This document shows, piece after piece, positions 52,365 to 61,723 of a stretch of 64,000 bases of DNA. A program made the translations under genes and the position numbers. Each line of letters begins with the position of its first letter. The stretch's first letter is position 1. The stretch lies in NCBI GenBank assembly GCA_016124945.1, contig WGMT01000021.1, positions 1-64,000 on the forward strand. The letters are read 5' to 3'. The notes under the pieces were generated by a model. It did not search any database. It was not told where the DNA came from and saw nothing but the letters and a program-made list of their open reading frames with translations. Source of the DNA: a bacterium. GTDB lineage: Bacteria > Chloroflexota > Anaerolineae > Caldilineales > Caldilineaceae.

Positions 52365-54959
52365 ATGATCTTGCTTGTCCTCGCGTTGACGTATTTGGTG
52401 GGGATTGCCGTTGGCCGCTGGTTTTGGCAGATATCGTGGATCGGTTGCGATTTCCCTGGCTGGCTGTGGATTGCCCCTGCACTCTCTTTGCCGCTCTGGC
52501 TCTGGCTAGACCACCTTGTTCGTCCTCACCGGCCCGTGGATCTCCGCTGGCCCGCTTCCGCCGGCTTTAAACCACCCCGTCCTCAAGTGCGCCCGTGGCT
52601 TGTGTTGTTGGTGGCCGCTGCTGCCGTCACCGGCGTGTTGCGCTACGCCTCACATCCCATCGCTCCCTGCCTGCAAGATACGGATCTTGCCTACTACAAT
52701 GCTCCCGCCGATGCCGCAAATGTTGACAGCGTCACCCTTGTCGGCTTCATCGCCACCTACCCGACTGTAACCGATGCTCGGCAGCGCCTTGAAGTTGATG
52801 TTTCTCATATGGTGGACGGCACTCGCCTGCTGCCGGTGCGGGGACGTGTGCAAATCAGCACTCGCTCACTGCCGAGATATGCGTATGGGCAGCGTGTGCA
52901 GATTAGTGGCCTCCTTGTAGAGCCGCCTGTCTTCGATAGCTTTGACTACCGTGCTTATCTGGCGCGCAAGGGCGTGCACAGCCTGCTTCAACGCCCACGC
53001 ATTGAAGTGCTGCCCGGTGACGGGGGATCGTCCCTGTTGCGGCGCATTTATATCCTCCGCGGGCGGGGCGAAGTGTTGCTCAACCGGCTGCTCCCCGAAC
53101 CATACGCCGCTCTGGCCAATGGTATGTTGCTTGGCATCGAATCCGGCATTCCCGAAGACCTCTACGAACAGTTTAACCTCACCGGCACGAGCCACACTAT
53201 TGTGATTTCGGGTAGTAATGTCGCCATTGTGGCGGGTGTCCTCGTTGCCGTGATGGCCCGTCTCCTGGGGAAGCGGCGAGCATTGTGGCCGACGCTGGCC
53301 GGCATCGCCGTTTATGCCTTCCTCGTGGGGGGCGACGCCGCCGTGGTCCGTGCTGCGCTGATGGGCAGCCTTGTCGTGATCGCTTCGGTCATCAATCGGC
53401 AGAGCACGGCGCTGGTGAGCCTGGCCTTCGCCTGTTGGGTGATGACGCTGATCAATCCGTTGACGCTGTGGGATGTGGGCTTCCAACTCAGCGCGTCGGC
53501 CACGGCGGGGTTGATGATCTTTTCGCCGGGGCTGATCGCCCTATGCGACCGTTTCTGGCCCGGCTTCGGCCAAGGTGGTCACCTCACCGGTGAGGGTGGC
53601 ATCAAAGAGGCCGGCGGCAGCCTGCTACGCGGCTTGATCCAAGACGGCCTGCTGGTGACCTTAGCGGCCAACTTCACCACGCTGCCGCTGGTGGTCTACT
53701 ACTTCCAGCGTCTGAGCCTCATCAGCCCTCTGACAAACCTGCTGATCTCGCCGGTGCAACCGTTCATCATGCTTGGGGGCGGGGCGGGCGTGATCGTCGG
53801 CATGTTAGGGATCGAATTACTGGCACAGGTACTGCTGTGGATTCCGTACGTCAGCCTGCTGTGGACGGTGACGATGGTGCAGTGGACGGCGGCATTGCCT
53901 GGTGCGAGTTTGGAGATTAGCGATTATAGCAGCGCTGCCATGGTGACCACCTACCTGCTGTTGGCGATAGTGTGGTGGCGAGGATGGCTGCAAGAACGTC
54001 TTTCGCACCTGCGTTCAATCAAGTGGACCGGTGCTTGGCTTCCCCTAGTCGCAGGCGGGGGAGTCTTCGCCGGTCTATCCGTCGCGGCATTCCTCGTCTG
54101 GCGGATTGTCCTGACGCAGCCGGACGGATATCTACACGTCCATTTCCTTGATGCGGGGCAGGGCGACGGCGTTTTCATCCAAACACCGTCTGGGCGGCAA
54201 GTTCTCATCGACGGCGGCAGTGATCCACAACGTCTTTTCGCCGAACTTGGGGAGGTAATGCCCTTCTGGGATCGTACCCTTGATTTGTTGGTGTTGACCC
54301 ATCCCGATCTCGATCATATGGGCGCACAGTTGACGATGCCGGAGCGCTTTGAAATCGGCCAGGCCATTGTGAGCAACGTCACGTTAGATGATGCTGACGG
54401 CGACCAATGGCGCGCCGGTACAGCCTATGCCGGTATTCCGATTGCCGTTCAGGGTGCAGGCGGCTGGATCGATCTCGGTGACGGCGTCGCGCTGTGGACA
54501 CTGTGGCCGCCAGACGAAAGCGCCGTGCGTCTCATTGGCATCGACGGCGACAACAAGAACGAACGTTCACTTGTCCAGAAATTGGTCTACGGGGAATTTA
54601 GTGTCCTCTTGACCGGCGATGCCGGTATGCCGAGCGAGGAGGCCATGCTCCGGGCAGGGGAAATGCTGTCGGCGCACGTTTTGAAGGTAGGCCATCATGG
54701 CAGTAACTCAAGTACAAGCCCGGCATGGGTTCGTGCTGTCAATCCAGCGGTTGCTGTGATCCAGGTTGGCGAAAATCGTTACGGCCATCCGCATGAAGAG
54801 GTGTTGGATGCGCTTGCGGGAAGACTGGTCCTACGCAACGATGAGCATGGGCGTGTTCATATTCGGAGCGACGGCGTGCAGATGTGGATCCATGTGGAAC
54901 GGAGGGCTGCGACGTTGTCTAACTGGTTTGAGACTGCTGCAAAACCTCTGACTCCGTAG
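52365..54959 (+). CDS. comEC: ComEC/Rec2 DNA-uptake channel
   Basis: An 864-residue membrane protein that carries single-stranded DNA across the inner membrane in natural transformation. Domains in order: N-terminal membrane segments and a DUF4131/OB-like region (to ~200), the Competence domain with ~8-10 membrane segments (about 230-560, including GTSHTIVISGSNVAIVAG), and a C-terminal metallo-beta-lactamase-like domain (about 600-830) with LDAGQGDGVFIQT, LTHPDLDHMGA, LTGDAG and KVGHHGSN. The complete HxDxDH motif suggests an active nuclease, as in full-length ComEC. Its last 41 bases overlap the 3' end of the convergent histidine kinase. Other uptake genes (comEA, pili) are not in the window. 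Confidence 0.95.
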   Translation: MILLVLALTYLVGIAVGRWFWQISWIGCDFPGWLWIAPALSLPLWLWLDHLVRPHRPVDLRWPASAGFKPPRPQVRPWLVLLVAAAAVTGVLRYASHPIAPCLQDTDLAYYNAPADAANVDSVTLVGFIATYPTVTDARQRLEVDVSHMVDGTRLLPVRGRVQISTRSLPRYAYGQRVQISGLLVEPPVFDSFDYRAYLARKGVHSLLQRPRIEVLPGDGGSSLLRRIYILRGRGEVLLNRLLPEPYAALANGMLLGIESGIPEDLYEQFNLTGTSHTIVISGSNVAIVAGVLVAVMARLLGKRRALWPTLAGIAVYAFLVGGDAAVVRAALMGSLVVIASVINRQSTALVSLAFACWVMTLINPLTLWDVGFQLSASATAGLMIFSPGLIALCDRFWPGFGQGGHLTGEGGIKEAGGSLLRGLIQDGLLVTLAANFTTLPLVVYYFQRLSLISPLTNLLISPVQPFIMLGGGAGVIVGMLGIELLAQVLLWIPYVSLLWTVTMVQWTAALPGASLEISDYSSAAMVTTYLLLAIVWWRGWLQERLSHLRSIKWTGAWLPLVAGGGVFAGLSVAAFLVWRIVLTQPDGYLHVHFLDAGQGDGVFIQTPSGRQVLIDGGSDPQRLFAELGEVMPFWDRTLDLLVLTHPDLDHMGAQLTMPERFEIGQAIVSNVTLDDADGDQWRAGTAYAGIPIAVQGAGGWIDLGDGVALWTLWPPDESAVRLIGIDGDNKNERSLVQKLVYGEFSVLLTGDAGMPSEEAMLRAGEMLSAHVLKVGHHGSNSSTSPAWVRAVNPAVAVIQVGENRYGHPHEEVLDALAGRLVLRNDEHGRVHIRSDGVQMWIHVERRAATLSNWFETAAKPLTP

Positions 54960-57543
54960 GTGTAGGAAGCGATTGTATCGATTGCGGTTGGAATTCTTGA
55001 TAGGCTGGCAAGGCGACCATGAAGGTGGATCCTTGTGTTGATGTGCTTTCAAGCCATACCTTCCCCCCAAATTGCTCGACAATTTCCTTGACCAGCGCAA
55101 GGCCAATGCCGGTACCGCCGAATTGGCGCGTTTCCGTCAGATCCGCCTGATAGAACTCCAGCCAGATGTTCTCTACTTCGTCCGGGGCGATGCCGATACC
55201 ATGATCTTCAACGGAAACCAAGATGGCCGGCTCCGGCATGGTCATGCTGTCGGACAGGGAAGTGTCCAAATTACGCGGCGGAAAAGTGAACTGTTCCGCC
55301 CAAATGTTAACCTTAACCAGGCCACCGTCCGGGCTAAATTTGACGGCATTGGAGAGCAGATTGTCGAAGACGTAGCTCAACTGAACCGGTTCGCCCCATA
55401 CCCAAAAGGCCATTTTCGGCCCAAGAAGACGGATCTCGTGGGGTTGTTGGCGCCAGATGGCGTCGCGGTCGGCCAGGATCTGAGCGCGTTCGATGCACTG
55501 TTCGGCGATAGAGCGCAGGTCGATGCGCTGTCCTTCGTGCATGGAGGCCAGCCGCTGTTGTTGCATGTGCAGCACGTTGTTCACCATCTGTACCAACGAT
55601 TGGGTACTGTGAATGATGGCGGTCAAATACTCCTGGTGTTCTTCATTGAGAGTGTCGTCGCTCATCATCAACTCAGTGAAGCCGTGGATTGTCGTCAACG
55701 GTGTGCGCAACTCATGGGTCACATTGCGCATTAGATCGCTTTTGAGCCGGTCGGCGCGGCGGAGTTCGAGGTTGAGCCGTTCCATTTCGCGGGCACGGAG
55801 TTGGGCGGCCTCGAAAAGGCGAATCGTCTCCAGTGCTACAGCAATCTGATTGCCTAGCGTGGTTGCCAGGTCGATATCTGCCTGGGGGTAAAAATCGTCG
55901 GGATCGCGCCGCCCGAAGACCCACATGCCGATGGTGACTTTGTCCACTTCGATGGGGACAATCAGCCGTGCCCAGTCAAAAGGGGCTTCGGGCATGTTTT
56001 CATAAGTAAGGTAGCGCTTGCCTTTTTTCTGTAGTTCCAGGAGATCATCTTTTGTAACGTGACTGAGATCTCTTTCAACGCCCATTGCGTGAACCAATGT
56101 CTGCTGTCCTTCTGCCAACCAAAACAGCGCCGCCTGCCGCACCAACAGCGTCGTCAAAATTTCCGTTTCTAGCAGCGTGCTCAACTGGTCACGACTCAAC
56201 GAACGGGGAATTGCATTGGCAAAGTGACGGATCAACTGCTCCGGCTCATAGGTCGTTCCGTATGCGATCCGATTCACCAGCCGCGTCACCGGTCCCCAAG
56301 AAAGGAAGGCAATCAACTGGCAAATCACAGAAGCAGCCAACGCCGCGCCCAGTGCGGCGGAATCGAACTGTGGCTCCCGGTAGAAAAGGACGAACAACAG
56401 GACAAACGCTGTAGCATAAACCACGGCGAAGCTATAGAGCATCAACGCTCGGTTGGCGCGGACTTCGGTGTCGCCAAGGCGGTGTTTATAAAGGGCGTAG
56501 GTATAGAAGAATGGGAGAATGGGTAGGGCTAAGGTTGCCAGTAGTTTTGCACTTGCATCCACCGCTCCTACATTGTTTCCCATAATAGGGAGTATCCAGA
56601 GGAGTCCTGGTAGTACTGCAATAATCAAACCGGACAGCATTAAAGACGTGGCTGAACGATTACTTCTTGAGCCTGGCCAGAGGAGCCTGGCAATCAAGAG
56701 GAGAATGCTACCGCCCATGCCTATTAGTATGCCAAAGAGGTATAAGCTATATGGCAGTAAGTCGATCAAGGTGAAAAATGCAAGTAAGGATGCTACTATG
56801 TGTAGATATTTCGTCTGCTTTAGAATATTCGCGGGTAATACTGGTTCTGGAAGAACCAAATGAAAATGGGTAAACACTGATGCCATCAACCAGGATAGAG
56901 GTGCTACAAGTAAGCCTGAAGCAAAGACATTGGAACTCGAAACCAAACCAATTGCAAACCATATGGCCGTTAAGTAATTAAATCCTATGAGCAAATACCA
57001 ACGTTCGTTACGTGGCCTGAAAAATAGAAGCACGATAGTGCCTGCTAACCAGAACGGCAGGAACAGTAAGGATATGCCAATTCTAGACATTTGTTCCTGC
57101 AACGTTCTCTGCTCAGGGGTGCCTGCAATCTCGATCTGCTCCTCATTCCTAGTTATTGTCAGAAAGATCAATTCTGTTTCGTGGATACCATTGAAAGGTG
57201 CAAGAAGACTTGCATCTCTCTCGGTAGTGTTCTCAATGACTACTTCTCTCGATGGGATACGGAAGCTATCGATCCGATCTCCGATCTGAAGTTGGGATGC
57301 GAGCGTTGTACATTCAGTCTGCATCGACTGTGAAGGTGAATCTTGTGTACTGAATTTCCCGCAGTTTGAGTCGACTTCGATAATCTGCCAATTTGAATTA
57401 AAGCCAAAGCCCAGATATGGAATAAAGTAGACATTGCCTAACGCATAGACGATACCAATGGCGAGTGTGGCTGATGCTACTAAAACTTGAAGTATCAGCC
57501 GGTGTGCTTGGGAAAAGTTGTGCAACTGGTAGTGTCTTTCCAT
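54919..57543 (-). CDS. ComP-like multi-TM sensor histidine kinase
   Basis: An 874-residue kinase. TM1 (about 17-40) leads to an extracytoplasmic loop (about 45-150) whose LQIGDRIDSF and following strands look PDZ-like. Some eight or nine membrane segments follow (153-416), then a GAF domain (about 440-580), a HisKA domain with phospho-acceptor His610 (VTHELRTPLTTIHGF) and a HATPase domain (DNLLSNAVKFSPDGG, DHGIGIAPDEV, GGTGIGLALVKE). The large sensor half with a big first outer loop recalls ComP. DNA for the sensor half (57543 to ~56500) is clearly richer in A+T than that for the kinase core. No response regulator is adjacent. Together with the next two genes it suggests detection of a prenylated peptide. 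No good ribosome site is seen before the ATG. Confidence 0.85.
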   Translation of the reverse strand: MERHYQLHNFSQAHRLILQVLVASATLAIGIVYALGNVYFIPYLGFGFNSNWQIIEVDSNCGKFSTQDSPSQSMQTECTTLASQLQIGDRIDSFRIPSREVVIENTTERDASLLAPFNGIHETELIFLTITRNEEQIEIAGTPEQRTLQEQMSRIGISLLFLPFWLAGTIVLLFFRPRNERWYLLIGFNYLTAIWFAIGLVSSSNVFASGLLVAPLSWLMASVFTHFHLVLPEPVLPANILKQTKYLHIVASLLAFFTLIDLLPYSLYLFGILIGMGGSILLLIARLLWPGSRSNRSATSLMLSGLIIAVLPGLLWILPIMGNNVGAVDASAKLLATLALPILPFFYTYALYKHRLGDTEVRANRALMLYSFAVVYATAFVLLFVLFYREPQFDSAALGAALAASVICQLIAFLSWGPVTRLVNRIAYGTTYEPEQLIRHFANAIPRSLSRDQLSTLLETEILTTLLVRQAALFWLAEGQQTLVHAMGVERDLSHVTKDDLLELQKKGKRYLTYENMPEAPFDWARLIVPIEVDKVTIGMWVFGRRDPDDFYPQADIDLATTLGNQIAVALETIRLFEAAQLRAREMERLNLELRRADRLKSDLMRNVTHELRTPLTTIHGFTELMMSDDTLNEEHQEYLTAIIHSTQSLVQMVNNVLHMQQQRLASMHEGQRIDLRSIAEQCIERAQILADRDAIWRQQPHEIRLLGPKMAFWVWGEPVQLSYVFDNLLSNAVKFSPDGGLVKVNIWAEQFTFPPRNLDTSLSDSMTMPEPAILVSVEDHGIGIAPDEVENIWLEFYQADLTETRQFGGTGIGLALVKEIVEQFGGKVWLESTSTQGSTFMVALPAYQEFQPQSIQSLPTPTESEVLQQSQTS

Positions 57544-57579
57544 AAGGTATGGTTCACTTACTTTGTTAATCCTGACGGC

Positions 57580-58581
57580 TCACCAAAGATCCTCCATCGC
57601 AATCTCCGGAGCAATCCTCTTCAGTAGCGTCTTGGCAGGTTGTAACTGTGTGTCGACTAGGGCTTCTAACTGCTTTGCATATGGCGCTTGTTGCATTGCA
57701 ATTTGCTGGCCAATGAATTTGCGTCTCTCAATTAACTTATATATGCAGTAACTAAGAGCCCCTGAATCAATTAGAATCTGTTGTAGGATGTTTAGTACAT
57801 CTACATCTGAATGTCGCGGCTTCAGTTTTATGAACGAATCACGATATGGATGATCAGCTGTGAGCCCATAGAGAATTGCTAAATTGTTTCGACCCTGAAC
57901 CCAGTCTGCGTTGGCTGGTTGAGTGAATGCATCCTCCAAATCATCACTGATTTGTATCATCTCTCCCAAGGTCGCTCCAATTTGGTAAAAACTTTCATTA
58001 ACTGCCTTGGAACAATTGGCTAGACTTGCTCCGATTTCAAGAGATGCGCCGTAATAAGGAGAACTTTTGGCGCTAACAACATGCCAGTAATCTTTCTCAG
58101 TCGTTAGGTTGCTGGTGTCTAGCTGTTGCCCTGCTGCCGTGCGCAAGATCATCCGATTTAGTGCTACGACAGCAGAAATTTTGGCTGCATCATTTACCTC
58201 GCACTGAGCAAGCAAGAGTGATGAGGCTGCTTGCAACGCCAGGGCAAGGTTCGCCGTTTCACCGCTACCTAGTTGCTGGTAAATGCCCTCGGGTTCCTCA
58301 TCCAAAATGTCATCTACTAAAATGATGGAAATTTGAACACATGCCATTGCGGCTGTAGATTTGAGTACTTTTTCGCCTGAGCCCGTAATGAATTTATAGG
58401 CAAGCATTGGCAACTGCCAATCAAAGGAAATTCGTTCGCTACGTTTAGCACTTGGGAATAATGCTTCTCCAATACCAGGCCACGCCTGAAACTCATTTAA
58501 AGCGGAGATGGTCTGCCAAATTTCCCCTTTGGTAATCGATGGGTTGTTAAGTGTAACGGACGTATCTGTTTTGGAACTCAT
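57580..58581 (-). CDS. Polyprenyl-synthase-family protein, ComQ-like
   Basis: A 333-residue member of the trans-isoprenyl diphosphate synthase fold. First Asp-rich motif DDILD (90-94), a GQQLD motif (151-155), KSSPYYGASLEIGASLA (172-188) and second Asp-rich motif DDLED (213-217). It could make a polyprenyl diphosphate. In Bacillus the related ComQ cleaves and prenylates the ComX peptide on a Trp. Here it is preceded, across a terminator, by a 57-aa gene ending in three Trp within five residues, and followed after 36 bases by a multi-TM kinase, so peptide prenylation is the better reading. It keeps both Asp-rich motifs, unlike my recollection of B. subtilis ComQ, which lacks a full second one. 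AGAGG eight bases before the ATG. A+T-richer than flanking genes. Confidence 0.8.
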   Translation of the reverse strand: MSSKTDTSVTLNNPSITKGEIWQTISALNEFQAWPGIGEALFPSAKRSERISFDWQLPMLAYKFITGSGEKVLKSTAAMACVQISIILVDDILDEEPEGIYQQLGSGETANLALALQAASSLLLAQCEVNDAAKISAVVALNRMILRTAAGQQLDTSNLTTEKDYWHVVSAKSSPYYGASLEIGASLANCSKAVNESFYQIGATLGEMIQISDDLEDAFTQPANADWVQGRNNLAILYGLTADHPYRDSFIKLKPRHSDVDVLNILQQILIDSGALSYCIYKLIERRKFIGQQIAMQQAPYAKQLEALVDTQLQPAKTLLKRIAPEIAMEDLW

Positions 58582-58608
58582 GTGTCGACCTCTTCAGGTT
58601 AATAATAC

Positions 58609-58637
58609 AAAAAAGCGTGTGGACTATGCCACACGCT
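58609..58637 (-). terminator. Strong terminator between the peptide gene and the ComQ-like gene
   Basis: On the minus strand AGCGTGTGG (58637-58629) pairs exactly with CCACACGCT (58622-58614) around six bases and is followed by TTTTTT (58614-58609). This would end most transcripts after the peptide gene and let a minority run into the modifier and kinase genes, giving peptide in excess. Confidence 0.85.
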
Positions 58638-58707
58638 ATTTCAGTTACTTTCATTCATCTTATGCAATTCGACTTCTAGTGAATCTGGGGGCCTATACCC
58701 ACCAAGC

Positions 58708-58881
58708 TTACCATCGCCATCCCCAGTTGTCGGTACCGATTGCTTTGTTCGTCATTTCGCGCACATCTTCGGGCTTGGCGATTTCGACGATCTTCTGCAA
58801 AAATTCAGGCAATTTGCTGTCGGCAGACTTCATCATCTGCTGGAATTCCTGGATTGTAAGTGTCTGAGTTTGCGTATTCAT
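58708..58881 (-). CDS. 57-residue ComX-like prepheromone candidate
   Basis: A short gene, start ATG at 58881, stop TAA at 58708-58710, with AAAGGAG seven bases before the ATG. The peptide begins MNTQTQTLTIQEFQQMMKS, has a helical leader-like middle (LPEFLQKIVEIAKPEDV), and ends KAIGTDNWGWRW, i.e. Trp53, Trp55 and Trp57. It has no Cys and no Sec signal. Length and a Trp near the C-terminus match ComX (55 aa in B. subtilis), which ComQ prenylates on Trp and whose C-terminal fragment is secreted. The strong ribosome site, dedicated terminator and direct repeats upstream indicate a real, highly expressed gene. The modification and mature form are inference. Confidence 0.72.
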   Translation of the reverse strand: MNTQTQTLTIQEFQQMMKSADSKLPEFLQKIVEIAKPEDVREMTNKAIGTDNWGWRW

Positions 58882-58903
58882 TTTACTGCTCCTTTGGGTC
58901 CCC

Positions 58904-58974
58904 TTAGGACAATGGTACTGGAAGGCGTTAGGACTGTGGTACTAGTGGCGGCGCCTAAAAACATCCAGATAATA
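58904..58974 (-). promoter_or_regulatory. Promoter region with tandem operator-like repeats upstream of the peptide gene
   Basis: On the minus strand a TATTAT -10-like box (58974-58969) lies about 88 bases before the ATG; I see no convincing -35, which fits an activator-dependent promoter. Between it and the gene are two direct repeats, AGTACCACAGTCCTAA (58943-58928) and AGTACCATTGTCCTAA (58919-58904), 14 of 16 bases identical and 24 bases apart. They could bind a response regulator or act in the leader RNA. Confidence 0.5.
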
Positions 58975-59008: not shown

Positions 59009-61723
59009 CTAGATTTTGTCTGAACTGACCATTTTCTGCAATTCATATAGACGATTCAGGGCATCCAGCGGGGTGAGTCCGTTGAGATCGAGGCTGCGCA
59101 GGGCATGCATAGCCGGGTGTAACTCCGCGAAAAGACCGACCTGCGTTGCCGTCTTCTTGGCGCGGGCCGTCTGTTCGTTGAGTTCGGTGAGCCGGCGAGG
59201 ACCTGCCGCGCCTGATCTTTCCAGATCGGTGAGGATCTCTTCGGCGCGCTGGACGACGGCTTTGGGCAGCCCCGCCATCTGCGCCACGTGGACGCCGTAG
59301 GATCTGTCCGCTCGGCCGGGGAGGATGCGGTGGAGAAAGACGACCTCCTCGCCGCCATCGTCGACAGCCACCTGGTAGTTGACCACGTGGGGCAGCCGCT
59401 CGGGCAGGTCGGTGAGTTCGTGGTAGTGGGTGGCGAAGAGCGTCTTTGCGCGCAAGGAGGGGTGGTTGTGAATGTACTCCACCACAGCCCAGGCGATGGC
59501 AAGGCCGTCGTAGGTGCTCGTGCCACGCCCAATCTCATCCAGCACCAGCAGACTGCGTGCCGTGGCATGATTGAGGATATTGGCCGTCTCCACCATTTCG
59601 ACCATGAAGGTCGATTGGCCACGGTGGATCTCGTCGCTGGCGCCGATACGGGTGAAGATACGATCCACAACGCCGATGCGCGCCGATTCGGCAGGGACGA
59701 ACGAGCCGATCTGCGCCATCAGCGTGATCAGCGCCGTCTGCCGCAAATAGGTTGATTTGCCCGACATATTGGGGCCGGTAAGGAGGTGGATGGCGGTATC
59801 GGGTGAAAGGTGCGTGTCGTTGGGTACGAACGGCACCGAACTGGTCAACTCCACCACCGGGTGACGCCCGCCGGCGATGACAAGTGACGCTCCGTCGTCC
59901 ATGTGCGGGCGTACGTAACGACGCTGCATGGCCACTTCGGCCAGCGTGCAGAAGACGTCTAGCCGTGCCAACCCGTGGGCCAGTTTCAGCAGTTGGCCCG
60001 AACGCGCCACGATCTGTTCGCAGGTGTCGCGGAAGATGCGCTGTTCGATTTCCAAACGGCGTTCGTCGGCGTTGAGGATCAACGATTCGTACTCTTTGAG
60101 TTCGGGCGTGATGTACCGTTCGGCGTTGGACAATGTCTGCTTGCGGATGTAGTCGTCTGGGGCTTTGTCGCGGTGGGTGTTGGTGATCTCGATGTAGTAA
60201 CCGAAGACTTTGTTGTAGCCTACTTTCAGGCTCTTGATATCGAGCCGTTCGCGTTCACTTTTTTCGAGATTAGCCACCCAATCTTTGGCATGGCGGCTGC
60301 GGTGGACAATCGAATCTAGCTCATCGTTGTAACCATCGCGGATGATGCCGGTGTTGCTCAGTGTGGCAGGCGGCTCGTCCGATATGGCGGCGGTGAGGAG
60401 CGTGAGTATTTCGTCACAGCGCGGCAACGCGTCGAGGACATCGTGAATGGGGCGGCGGGCGGCGTCGTCGGTGGACGGTGACTGGCCGTTGTTTGACTGA
60501 CCGTTGTTTGACTGACCGTTGTTTGACTGACCGTTATTGAGAACGTCGCTCCAGTCTAGGCTGCGGATCAGGTCGGGAATGGCTTGTAACACGACGCGGA
60601 TGCCCACTAGATCGCGCGGTTGGGCGCGCCCCTGAATCACGCGATTGGTCCAACGCTCCACGTCGCCTAGACCGCGCAAACTCTCGCGGATCCCCATACG
60701 CATGCGGCTTTGGCTGTAGAAGGCTTCGACGGCGTCGTGACGGCTACAGATGGCGTCGATGTCGAGCAGGGGCTGACCGAGCCAACGCCGCAGCAGACGC
60801 CCTCCCATCGGCGTCAGCGTTTCGTCGAGGACGCCGAGCAGGCTGCCTTTGGTGCTGCCGCCGCGCAGCGTCTCGGTCAGTTCGAGGTTGCGCCGCGTCG
60901 ATTCGTCCAGCGTCATAAACTCGCCCACTTCGTAGCTCTGGATGTGGGTCAACTGCGCCAGGGCGGTGGGCTGCATCTCTTGCAGGTAGGCGAGGATGCC
61001 GGCGGCGGCGCGGATGGCCTGTTCCTTGCGTTGAAGGCCGAAACCATCCAGCGTACTCACGTCGAAATGGCGGAGCAACGTGCGCCGCGCCGTCTCGGTT
61101 TCAACACGCCACGGCTCAACGCCTGAGACAACGACGCCCAGCGCTTGGATCAGCGGCTCTAAGGTTGTCTGTTCTACGGCCCAGTCGGCGGTGACCAGTT
61201 CGCTGGGCTGGAGGCGACTCAGTTCTTCGCCCACCCGACGCTCCACTTCTTCGCTGCCGCTGCCGTTGATCTGGGTGGTGGCGAATTCGCCGGTGGTGAT
61301 GTCGCAATATGCAATACCGGCCTCGCTACCCCGTCCACTGAAACTCACCGCGACCAAATAGTTGTTGCGATCGTCGGAAAGCATCGACGGTTCAACAATC
61401 GTCCCCTTAGTGACAACATGCTGAATTTCCCTTTCCACCAAACCTTTGCCGGGTTCGCTGACCTGTTCGGCCACGGCGACTTTGTAGCCTGCCGCCACCA
61501 GCCGGGCGATGTAGCCTTCAACGCTGTGATAGGGCACACCGGCCAGGGGCACACGTTGATTGTCGCCCACAGGCCGGCTGGTGAGGACAACATCACAGAC
61601 GTCGGCCACGATTTTGGCGTCGTCGTCGAAGGTTTCGTAGAAGTCGCCCAGACGGAAAAAGAGGATACAGTTGGGGTATTGGCTCTTTAGATCCAAATAT
61701 TGACGGCGCATCGGCGTGGACAT
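59009..61723 (-). CDS. mutS: DNA mismatch repair protein MutS
   Basis: A 904-residue MutS. The mismatch-reading motif is FYE in FRLGDFYETF near residue 28; then the connector, the core and clamp domains, and the ATPase with Walker A GPNMSGKST, LVLDEIGRGTS (Walker B) and ATHYHELTDL. A C-terminal region with LTELNEQTARAKK follows. In the core domain a low-complexity SNNGQ motif occurs four times, encoded by a 15-base tandem repeat (60480-60540), a likely disordered loop. The ribosome site is weak and Met5 is an alternative start. Confidence 0.95.
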   Translation of the reverse strand: MSTPMRRQYLDLKSQYPNCILFFRLGDFYETFDDDAKIVADVCDVVLTSRPVGDNQRVPLAGVPYHSVEGYIARLVAAGYKVAVAEQVSEPGKGLVEREIQHVVTKGTIVEPSMLSDDRNNYLVAVSFSGRGSEAGIAYCDITTGEFATTQINGSGSEEVERRVGEELSRLQPSELVTADWAVEQTTLEPLIQALGVVVSGVEPWRVETETARRTLLRHFDVSTLDGFGLQRKEQAIRAAAGILAYLQEMQPTALAQLTHIQSYEVGEFMTLDESTRRNLELTETLRGGSTKGSLLGVLDETLTPMGGRLLRRWLGQPLLDIDAICSRHDAVEAFYSQSRMRMGIRESLRGLGDVERWTNRVIQGRAQPRDLVGIRVVLQAIPDLIRSLDWSDVLNNGQSNNGQSNNGQSNNGQSPSTDDAARRPIHDVLDALPRCDEILTLLTAAISDEPPATLSNTGIIRDGYNDELDSIVHRSRHAKDWVANLEKSERERLDIKSLKVGYNKVFGYYIEITNTHRDKAPDDYIRKQTLSNAERYITPELKEYESLILNADERRLEIEQRIFRDTCEQIVARSGQLLKLAHGLARLDVFCTLAEVAMQRRYVRPHMDDGASLVIAGGRHPVVELTSSVPFVPNDTHLSPDTAIHLLTGPNMSGKSTYLRQTALITLMAQIGSFVPAESARIGVVDRIFTRIGASDEIHRGQSTFMVEMVETANILNHATARSLLVLDEIGRGTSTYDGLAIAWAVVEYIHNHPSLRAKTLFATHYHELTDLPERLPHVVNYQVAVDDGGEEVVFLHRILPGRADRSYGVHVAQMAGLPKAVVQRAEEILTDLERSGAAGPRRLTELNEQTARAKKTATQVGLFAELHPAMHALRSLDLNGLTPLDALNRLYELQKMVSSDKI
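60480..60540. repeat. 15-bp tandem repeat inside mutS
   Basis: Four copies of a 15-base unit with text GACTGACCGTTGTTT encode SNNGQ repeats in the MutS core. The unit keeps the frame, so copy-number change by slippage would alter loop length without destroying the protein. Confidence 0.85.

Follow-up and report, generated by a model that had tools for sequence, protein, structure and literature searches.

A candidate ComQXPA-like cassette for tryptophan-prenylated peptide signalling in Chloroflexota

Peptide pheromones prenylated on tryptophan (Trp) have so far been regarded as a speciality of Bacillota, in which the ComQXPA system of Bacillus subtilis and other members couples a small Trp-bearing precursor to a prenyltransferase of isoprenyl-synthase fold and a sensor kinase. 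In the portions of the three publications drawn on here, a 2014 census reports comQXPA-like loci in no phylum but Firmicutes and takes a Trp 5 to 10 residues from the C-terminus as a criterion for ComX-type precursors (PMC4008528); the PalQ cluster of Paenibacillus alvei is described as comprising a kinase, a precursor and a Trp prenyltransferase (PMC10853753), with a Gly before the acceptor Trp aiding recognition in PalQ/PalX (PMC10853753, PMC13290415); and a 2026 review states that every characterized prenyltransferase resembling trans-isoprenyl diphosphate synthases (trans-IDS) targets Trp, and that the second Asp motif of these enzymes serves Trp rather than isopentenyl diphosphate (IPP) (PMC13290415). 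Among the matches listed in our literature search, open papers held no prenyl-peptide system of Chloroflexota, most subscription papers and all bioRxiv preprints lying outside its scope. Here we analysed a 64,000-nt stretch of a Caldilineaceae genome (GCA_016124945.1, contig WGMT01000021.1, positions 1 to 64,000; hereafter the window) holding adjacent genes for a 57-aa peptide, a synthase-fold enzyme and a histidine kinase, and compared this trio with those systems.

In the source genome (8.74 Mb in 107 contigs, 98.46% complete, 9.24% contamination), the minus-strand order is mutS, peptide gene, synthase and kinase. An earlier reading made from the letters alone (the sequence-only reading) had described three same-strand genes, namely a peptide ending in WGWRW, a synthase with both Asp-rich motifs and a kinase, with the peptide gene first; sequence and domain matches confirmed the trio, and the gene layout its order. 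The peptide gene (58708..58881; minus strand, as are all features unless stated) has a Shine-Dalgarno-like AAAGGAG 5′ of its start codon (58889..58895), and its product ends in DNWGWRW, with Trp at positions 53, 55 and 57 of 57, that is, near the precursor C-terminus as the ComX-type criterion asks. By Trp conservation, Trp55 (codon 58717..58719), which follows Gly54, is the predicted prenyl acceptor. The next gene (57580..58581) encodes a 333-aa ComQ-like enzyme of trans-isoprenyl-synthase fold, a predicted Trp prenyltransferase, with a first Asp-rich motif DDILD at residues 90-94 (58300..58314) and a second, DDLED, at residues 213-217 (57931..57945), upstream of which lies Gln210. The sensor histidine kinase of 874 aa (54919..57543) consists of a first transmembrane (TM) segment, a PDZ-like extracytoplasmic loop (residues 43-146; 57106..57417), further TM helices, a GAF domain and a HisKA plus HATPase_c core (residues 601-847; 55003..55743).

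We consider this trio to be quite probably a ComQXPA-like cassette for Trp-prenyl cell-cell signalling, found here only in Chloroflexota and likely to work as ComQXPA does. In this scheme a Trp close to the peptide C-terminus would be prenylated by the enzyme, whose first Asp motif would hold the allylic diphosphate while the peptide Trp takes the place of IPP; the cut peptide would then be released and sensed by the kinase. We infer prenylation, likeliest at Trp55, together with the length of the donor, cleavage and export of the peptide, its binding to the PDZ-like loop and the output by phosphorelay. The signalling reading is drawn from the co-occurrence of the genes, the leader/core pattern of the peptide, its invariant second Trp, the lost IPP-binding elements of the enzyme and the ComP-like sensor layout.

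Conserved co-occurrence, which the sequence-only reading had put forward as a check, was found in Chloroflexota. A single-sequence scan of the genome contig collection returned no relative, and an alignment-based scan with synthase relatives returned 54 loci, all in Chloroflexota; absence outside the phylum is no proof, because the search patterns were derived from this synthase family. With the window, L034 and L107 added, 57 loci were obtained (L075, a near copy of L076, is counted here and was dropped from sequence sets), and a precursor gene adjoins the synthase at 51 of them, 23 of class A and 28 of class B, the two precursor classes paralleling two synthase clades. A histidine kinase adjoins 49 of these 51 pairs. 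The six loci lacking a precursor either sit on contigs starting at or inside the synthase (L087, L088, L093) or have a short or broken synthase (L095-L097), and no precursor hit was obtained at 26 other synthase loci (L002, L003, L009-L032). Since 51/57 loci are paired and 102 database proteins match the precursor profile (see below), the pairing of peptide and synthase goes beyond chance. A genome of the same genus (G400) has its own cassette copy, and within the family Caldilineaceae the synthase occurs in 12 of 46 genomes, being fragmented in one (G411). L095, L096, L097 and L108 resemble decayed class B cassettes, in which the synthase is broken or short and a precursor was not seen; the kinase persists in L095, L096 and L108, and the regulator in all four.

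The short gene itself was evaluated with leave-one-out hidden Markov models (HMMs), which ranked the precursor first among all open reading frames (ORFs) of 30-130 aa at 47/47 loci. The training precursors had been chosen partly by their Trp tail, and the test was therefore rerun with five more loci and with the training peptides truncated just before the Trp motif: the best-ranked ORF still carried W-x(x)-W within its last 20 residues at 48 of 52 loci, compared with 178 of 6215 background ORFs (2.9%), the exceptions being L070 and, with the precursor not seen, L095-L097 (L108 was outside this test). Searched against 5.8 billion proteins, the precursor profile gave 102 matches, the window's own and some training peptides included, which bear the name ‘hypothetical protein’ bar one unrelated enzyme name; four name an organism, in each case a member of Chloroflexota. 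W-x(x)-W is present in 96 of these, and a Trp lies within the last 12 residues in all 102. Non-conservation of the short ORF had been set beforehand as a test that could overturn the proposal, and the ORF is conserved on both counts (51/57 loci, 102 matches).

Precursors of pheromones and of ribosomally synthesized and post-translationally modified peptides (RiPPs) have a constant leader and a changing core. The window peptide can be split, by eye, into a conserved leader, MNTQTQTLTIQEFQQMMKSADSKLPEFLQKIVEIAKPEDVREM, and a variable core, TNKAIGTDNWGWRW; across six near relatives, 32-41 of 43 leader residues are kept and 5-10 of 15-17 core residues, with the same by-eye border. With its kept leader and varying core, the window peptide thus behaves as such precursors do. 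The second Trp, corresponding to window Trp55, is invariant in 19/19 aligned class A peptides.

The kinase has HisKA (PF00512) and HATPase_c domains and a borderline GAF domain, and its sensor, a PDZ-like loop combined with many TM helices, has the layout of ComP, the loop being matched by fold and not by sequence. The earlier description of a kinase with a large outer loop and many TM segments, likened to ComP, is supported, the profile match to ComP being weak for the window sequence alone. Its core is HisKA instead of the HisKA_3 sought; elsewhere, HisKA_3 is clear in L071 and weak in four of five class B kinases tested. No response regulator adjoins the cassette in the window, as the sequence-only reading had stated in noting the lack of an adjacent ComA, but this does not extend to class B, in which 26/28 loci have an adjacent ComA-like regulator (profile probability against ComA 99.6%), kinase and regulator being divergently placed. 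At 13 loci an XRE-like regulator (named by eye) of ~380 aa, such as L062:1954-3093 of class B, is found beyond the kinase, ~3.6-4.3 kb upstream of the middle of the synthase gene and encoded on the other strand from it; this regulator could be a target or a further cassette part. In L033, which shares its contig with L056, kinase ORFs flank the peptide-synthase pair on both sides.

Such a trio could also produce a Trp-prenylated RiPP whose role is a different one (antimicrobial or surface-active), with the kinase merely tuning its production, as PalX/PalQ/PalP may do. The PalQ cluster shares the same three parts (PMC10853753), including a synthase-fold Trp prenyltransferase (PalQ being likened by description) and a precursor with a C-terminal Trp, and a leader with a variable core suits any RiPP. 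However, the sensor layout is that of ComP, and clustering of neighbouring ORFs of at least 80 aa revealed no exporter-like family recurring at a constant spacing; eight loci have a member of an ABC-type ATPase family, but at scattered offsets. We judge this alternative unlikely. PalX has a nitrile hydratase leader peptide (NHLP)-type leader, whereas the window precursor matched none of the NCBIfam families, NHLP leaders included, at E up to 1. Near some cassettes, at L069:1686-1958 and L053:5733-5951, small proteins gave matches to the Os1348-family NHLP clan that stay below the NCBIfam cut-off, the former protein belonging to a six-locus cluster whose distance to the cassette varies.

The enzyme matches PF00348 (E 7e-18), and its predicted structure has the synthase fold (pLDDT, predicted local distance difference test, 91.9) with a geranylgeranyl diphosphate (GGPP) synthase as top solved match. 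Ordinary trans-IDS, that is, GGPP and farnesyl diphosphate (FPP) synthases, share this fold and both Asp-rich motifs, and bind IPP through an N-terminal GGKxxR and an RRG after the first Asp motif. By pattern, each of these two elements occurs in 0 of 51 cassette synthases, the window DDILD included, and in none of 11 ComQ sequences, compared with 17 (GGKxxR) and 14 (RRG) of 26 other Chloroflexota synthases. The 24 class A synthases in the motif and profile sets include L088, which had been placed in class A through a spurious distant hit (15 bits) and was left out of the trees. A first, quick tree put the cassette synthases into a single clade (Shimodaira-Hasegawa-like approximate likelihood ratio test, SH-aLRT, 99) apart from that of ComQ; within it, class A (support 92) and class B (91 when the long row L091 is set aside) separate in agreement with the precursor-assigned classes. 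A second tree, built without the long branches CAN_L003, L009, L012 and L027, recovered class A as a clade (99) but not class B. Grouping with ordinary GGPP/FPP synthases, which had been named in advance as a result that would speak against the proposal, was thus not found: the cassette synthases are a distinct clade lacking the IPP-binding motifs. Two further, remote synthase-fold genes exist in the source genome. A second synthase-fold gene of the genome, L003 (G000:C71:125133-125720), is very divergent, with a long tree branch, and lies between a kinase-like ORF and an ORF resembling an ABC transporter ATPase.

It is conceivable, at a clearly lower probability than the RiPP with another job, that the enzyme modifies the peptide in some other way or supplies the kinase with a terpenoid ligand, with the Trp tail serving kinase or membrane contact only. 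The Trp acceptor is deduced solely from the fold, the missing IPP motifs and the neighbouring genes, and two Trp are conserved instead of one; against this, the characterized trans-IDS-like prenyltransferases in the review cited above all target Trp, and it is the second Trp that is invariant in the aligned peptides. That an ordinary polyprenyl diphosphate synthase lies by chance near an unrelated small ORF and an orphan kinase, as Pfam and database names (polyprenyl or geranylgeranyl synthase) and the nearest solved folds (GGPP synthases) might suggest, is highly improbable in view of the two IPP-binding motifs missing in 51/51, the separate clade, the two other synthase-fold genes of the genome, and precursors at 51/57 cassette loci with no hit at the 26 other synthase loci.

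Several results weigh against the signalling reading. Pfam ComX (PF05952) gave no match to the window peptide at E up to 1, with the same library detecting ComX in L170 and L171, and the class A and B precursor profiles compared with ComX at 0.06% probability; a whole-genome probe of 21 genomes with Pfam ComX found none over the cut-off, which is uninformative in that the B. subtilis control was negative too. W-x(x)-W is missing from 6/102 peptide matches, L070 keeps the second Trp only, and the window tail W-G-W-R-W deviates from the usual W-x-x-W spacing. The window kinase sequence alone matched ComP weakly (4% probability), the sensor loops alone did not match the ComP loop by sequence (0.08% and 15%), Foldseek returned no match for the sensor model at E 0.001 or better, and HisKA_3 exceeded the Pfam cut-off in one of the five class B kinases. 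By profile comparison, the cassette synthases are closer to ordinary synthases than to ComQ, and constraining them together with ComQ was not rejected (approximately unbiased, AU, test, p 0.548), so that a common origin is not established. The cassette includes no exporter or protease gene. Finally, the chemistry, expression and secretion of this likely mechanism are predicted from sequence.

Set beside ComQXPA, the Chloroflexota cassettes share a small Trp-bearing precursor next to a synthase-fold prenyltransferase and a multi-TM kinase with a PDZ loop, the absence of both IPP-binding motifs, and, in class B, an adjacent regulator matching ComA. They differ in precursors that show no ComX homology by profile and usually carry two Trp as W-x(x)-W, in the peptide gene standing first, in a synthase clade of their own and, in class B, in the divergent arrangement of kinase and regulator. 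In the formal sense the window cassette falls outside ComQXPA: its peptide lacks homology to ComX, its kinase is of HisKA type and ComA is not adjacent. Of the earlier proposal of an analogous or homologous ComQXP system, analogy stands, and homology is neither demonstrated nor rejected.

Compared with its same-genus counterpart L046, the window cassette has diverged further than its flanks: identities are 82% for mutS and 70% for comEC, and 45%, 46% and 30% for synthase, peptide and PDZ loop, respectively. In 36/36 pairs of nine loci, pairs that are not independent, conservation within the kinase is lowest in the PDZ loop. Outer loops commonly evolve fast; the divergence of the cassette fits ligand-receptor diversification.

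The cassette is flanked upstream by mutS (59009..61723) and on the other side by comEC (PF03772; 52365..54959, plus strand), which is convergent with the kinase and overlaps its 3′ end by 41 bp. Within Caldilineaceae the order mutS-cassette-comEC is conserved; comEC sits beside the cassette, on one contig, in 10 of the 11 family genomes in which the synthase is not in pieces, the eleventh, G409, being interrupted by contig ends. The sequence-only reading had taken the comEC overlap to suggest a link to competence, which we rejected as evidence: three cassette-free genomes show mutS and comEC as convergent neighbours too, with another ORF, of 164-169 aa, in the ~0.64 kb that separates them in G436 and G433, and at a distance of ~2.1 kb in G438. 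Because the two genes adjoin in cassette-free genomes, the position is perhaps a mere insertion site; other cassette-free genomes, e.g. G435 and G437, have them ~85 kb apart, which counts against a simple insertion story. Neither gene was found near the remaining 12 class A loci or any of the 28 class B loci, some on short contigs. We read the mutS-comEC location as one old position rather than a regulatory link. In L172, L173 and L174, all from cassette-free genomes, the interval from mutS to comEC contains a similar membrane-like ORF (164-176 aa).

Between peptide and synthase genes, a perfect 9-bp hairpin (AGCGTGTGG-6-CCACACGCT) followed by a T run forms a conserved terminator- or attenuator-like element (58614..58637). 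Its core, GCGTGTGG-N-CCACACGC, is single-copy in the 8.74 Mb genome and recurs at the same place in the divergent class A cassettes L044, L050, L051, L052, L053, L071 and L107, with variants in L046 and L056. Terminator-like hairpins occur in 11/23 class A and 9/34 class B gaps, with 0.3 and 0.4 expected from shuffles, respectively; loci sharing another locus's contig, which were dropped from the sequence sets, were in part entered twice in these counts. The hairpin may be an attenuator giving more peptide than enzyme.

For the phylum as a whole, we lean towards a widespread, two-class family of Trp-prenyl pheromone systems in Chloroflexota. It would be the first beyond Bacillota and would combine a prenyltransferase clade of its own, two twin-Trp precursor families, diversified pherotypes and one ComP-like sensor feeding interchangeable outputs (HisKA; HisKA_3-like with a ComA-like regulator; hybrid phosphorelay). 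If so, the single versus double origin of Trp-prenyl systems would become testable, the peptide Trp prenyltransferases would gain a clade of interest for biocatalysis, and Chloroflexota, whose members are in many cases filamentous, uncultured or plentiful in sludge and mats, would have a defined peptide language.
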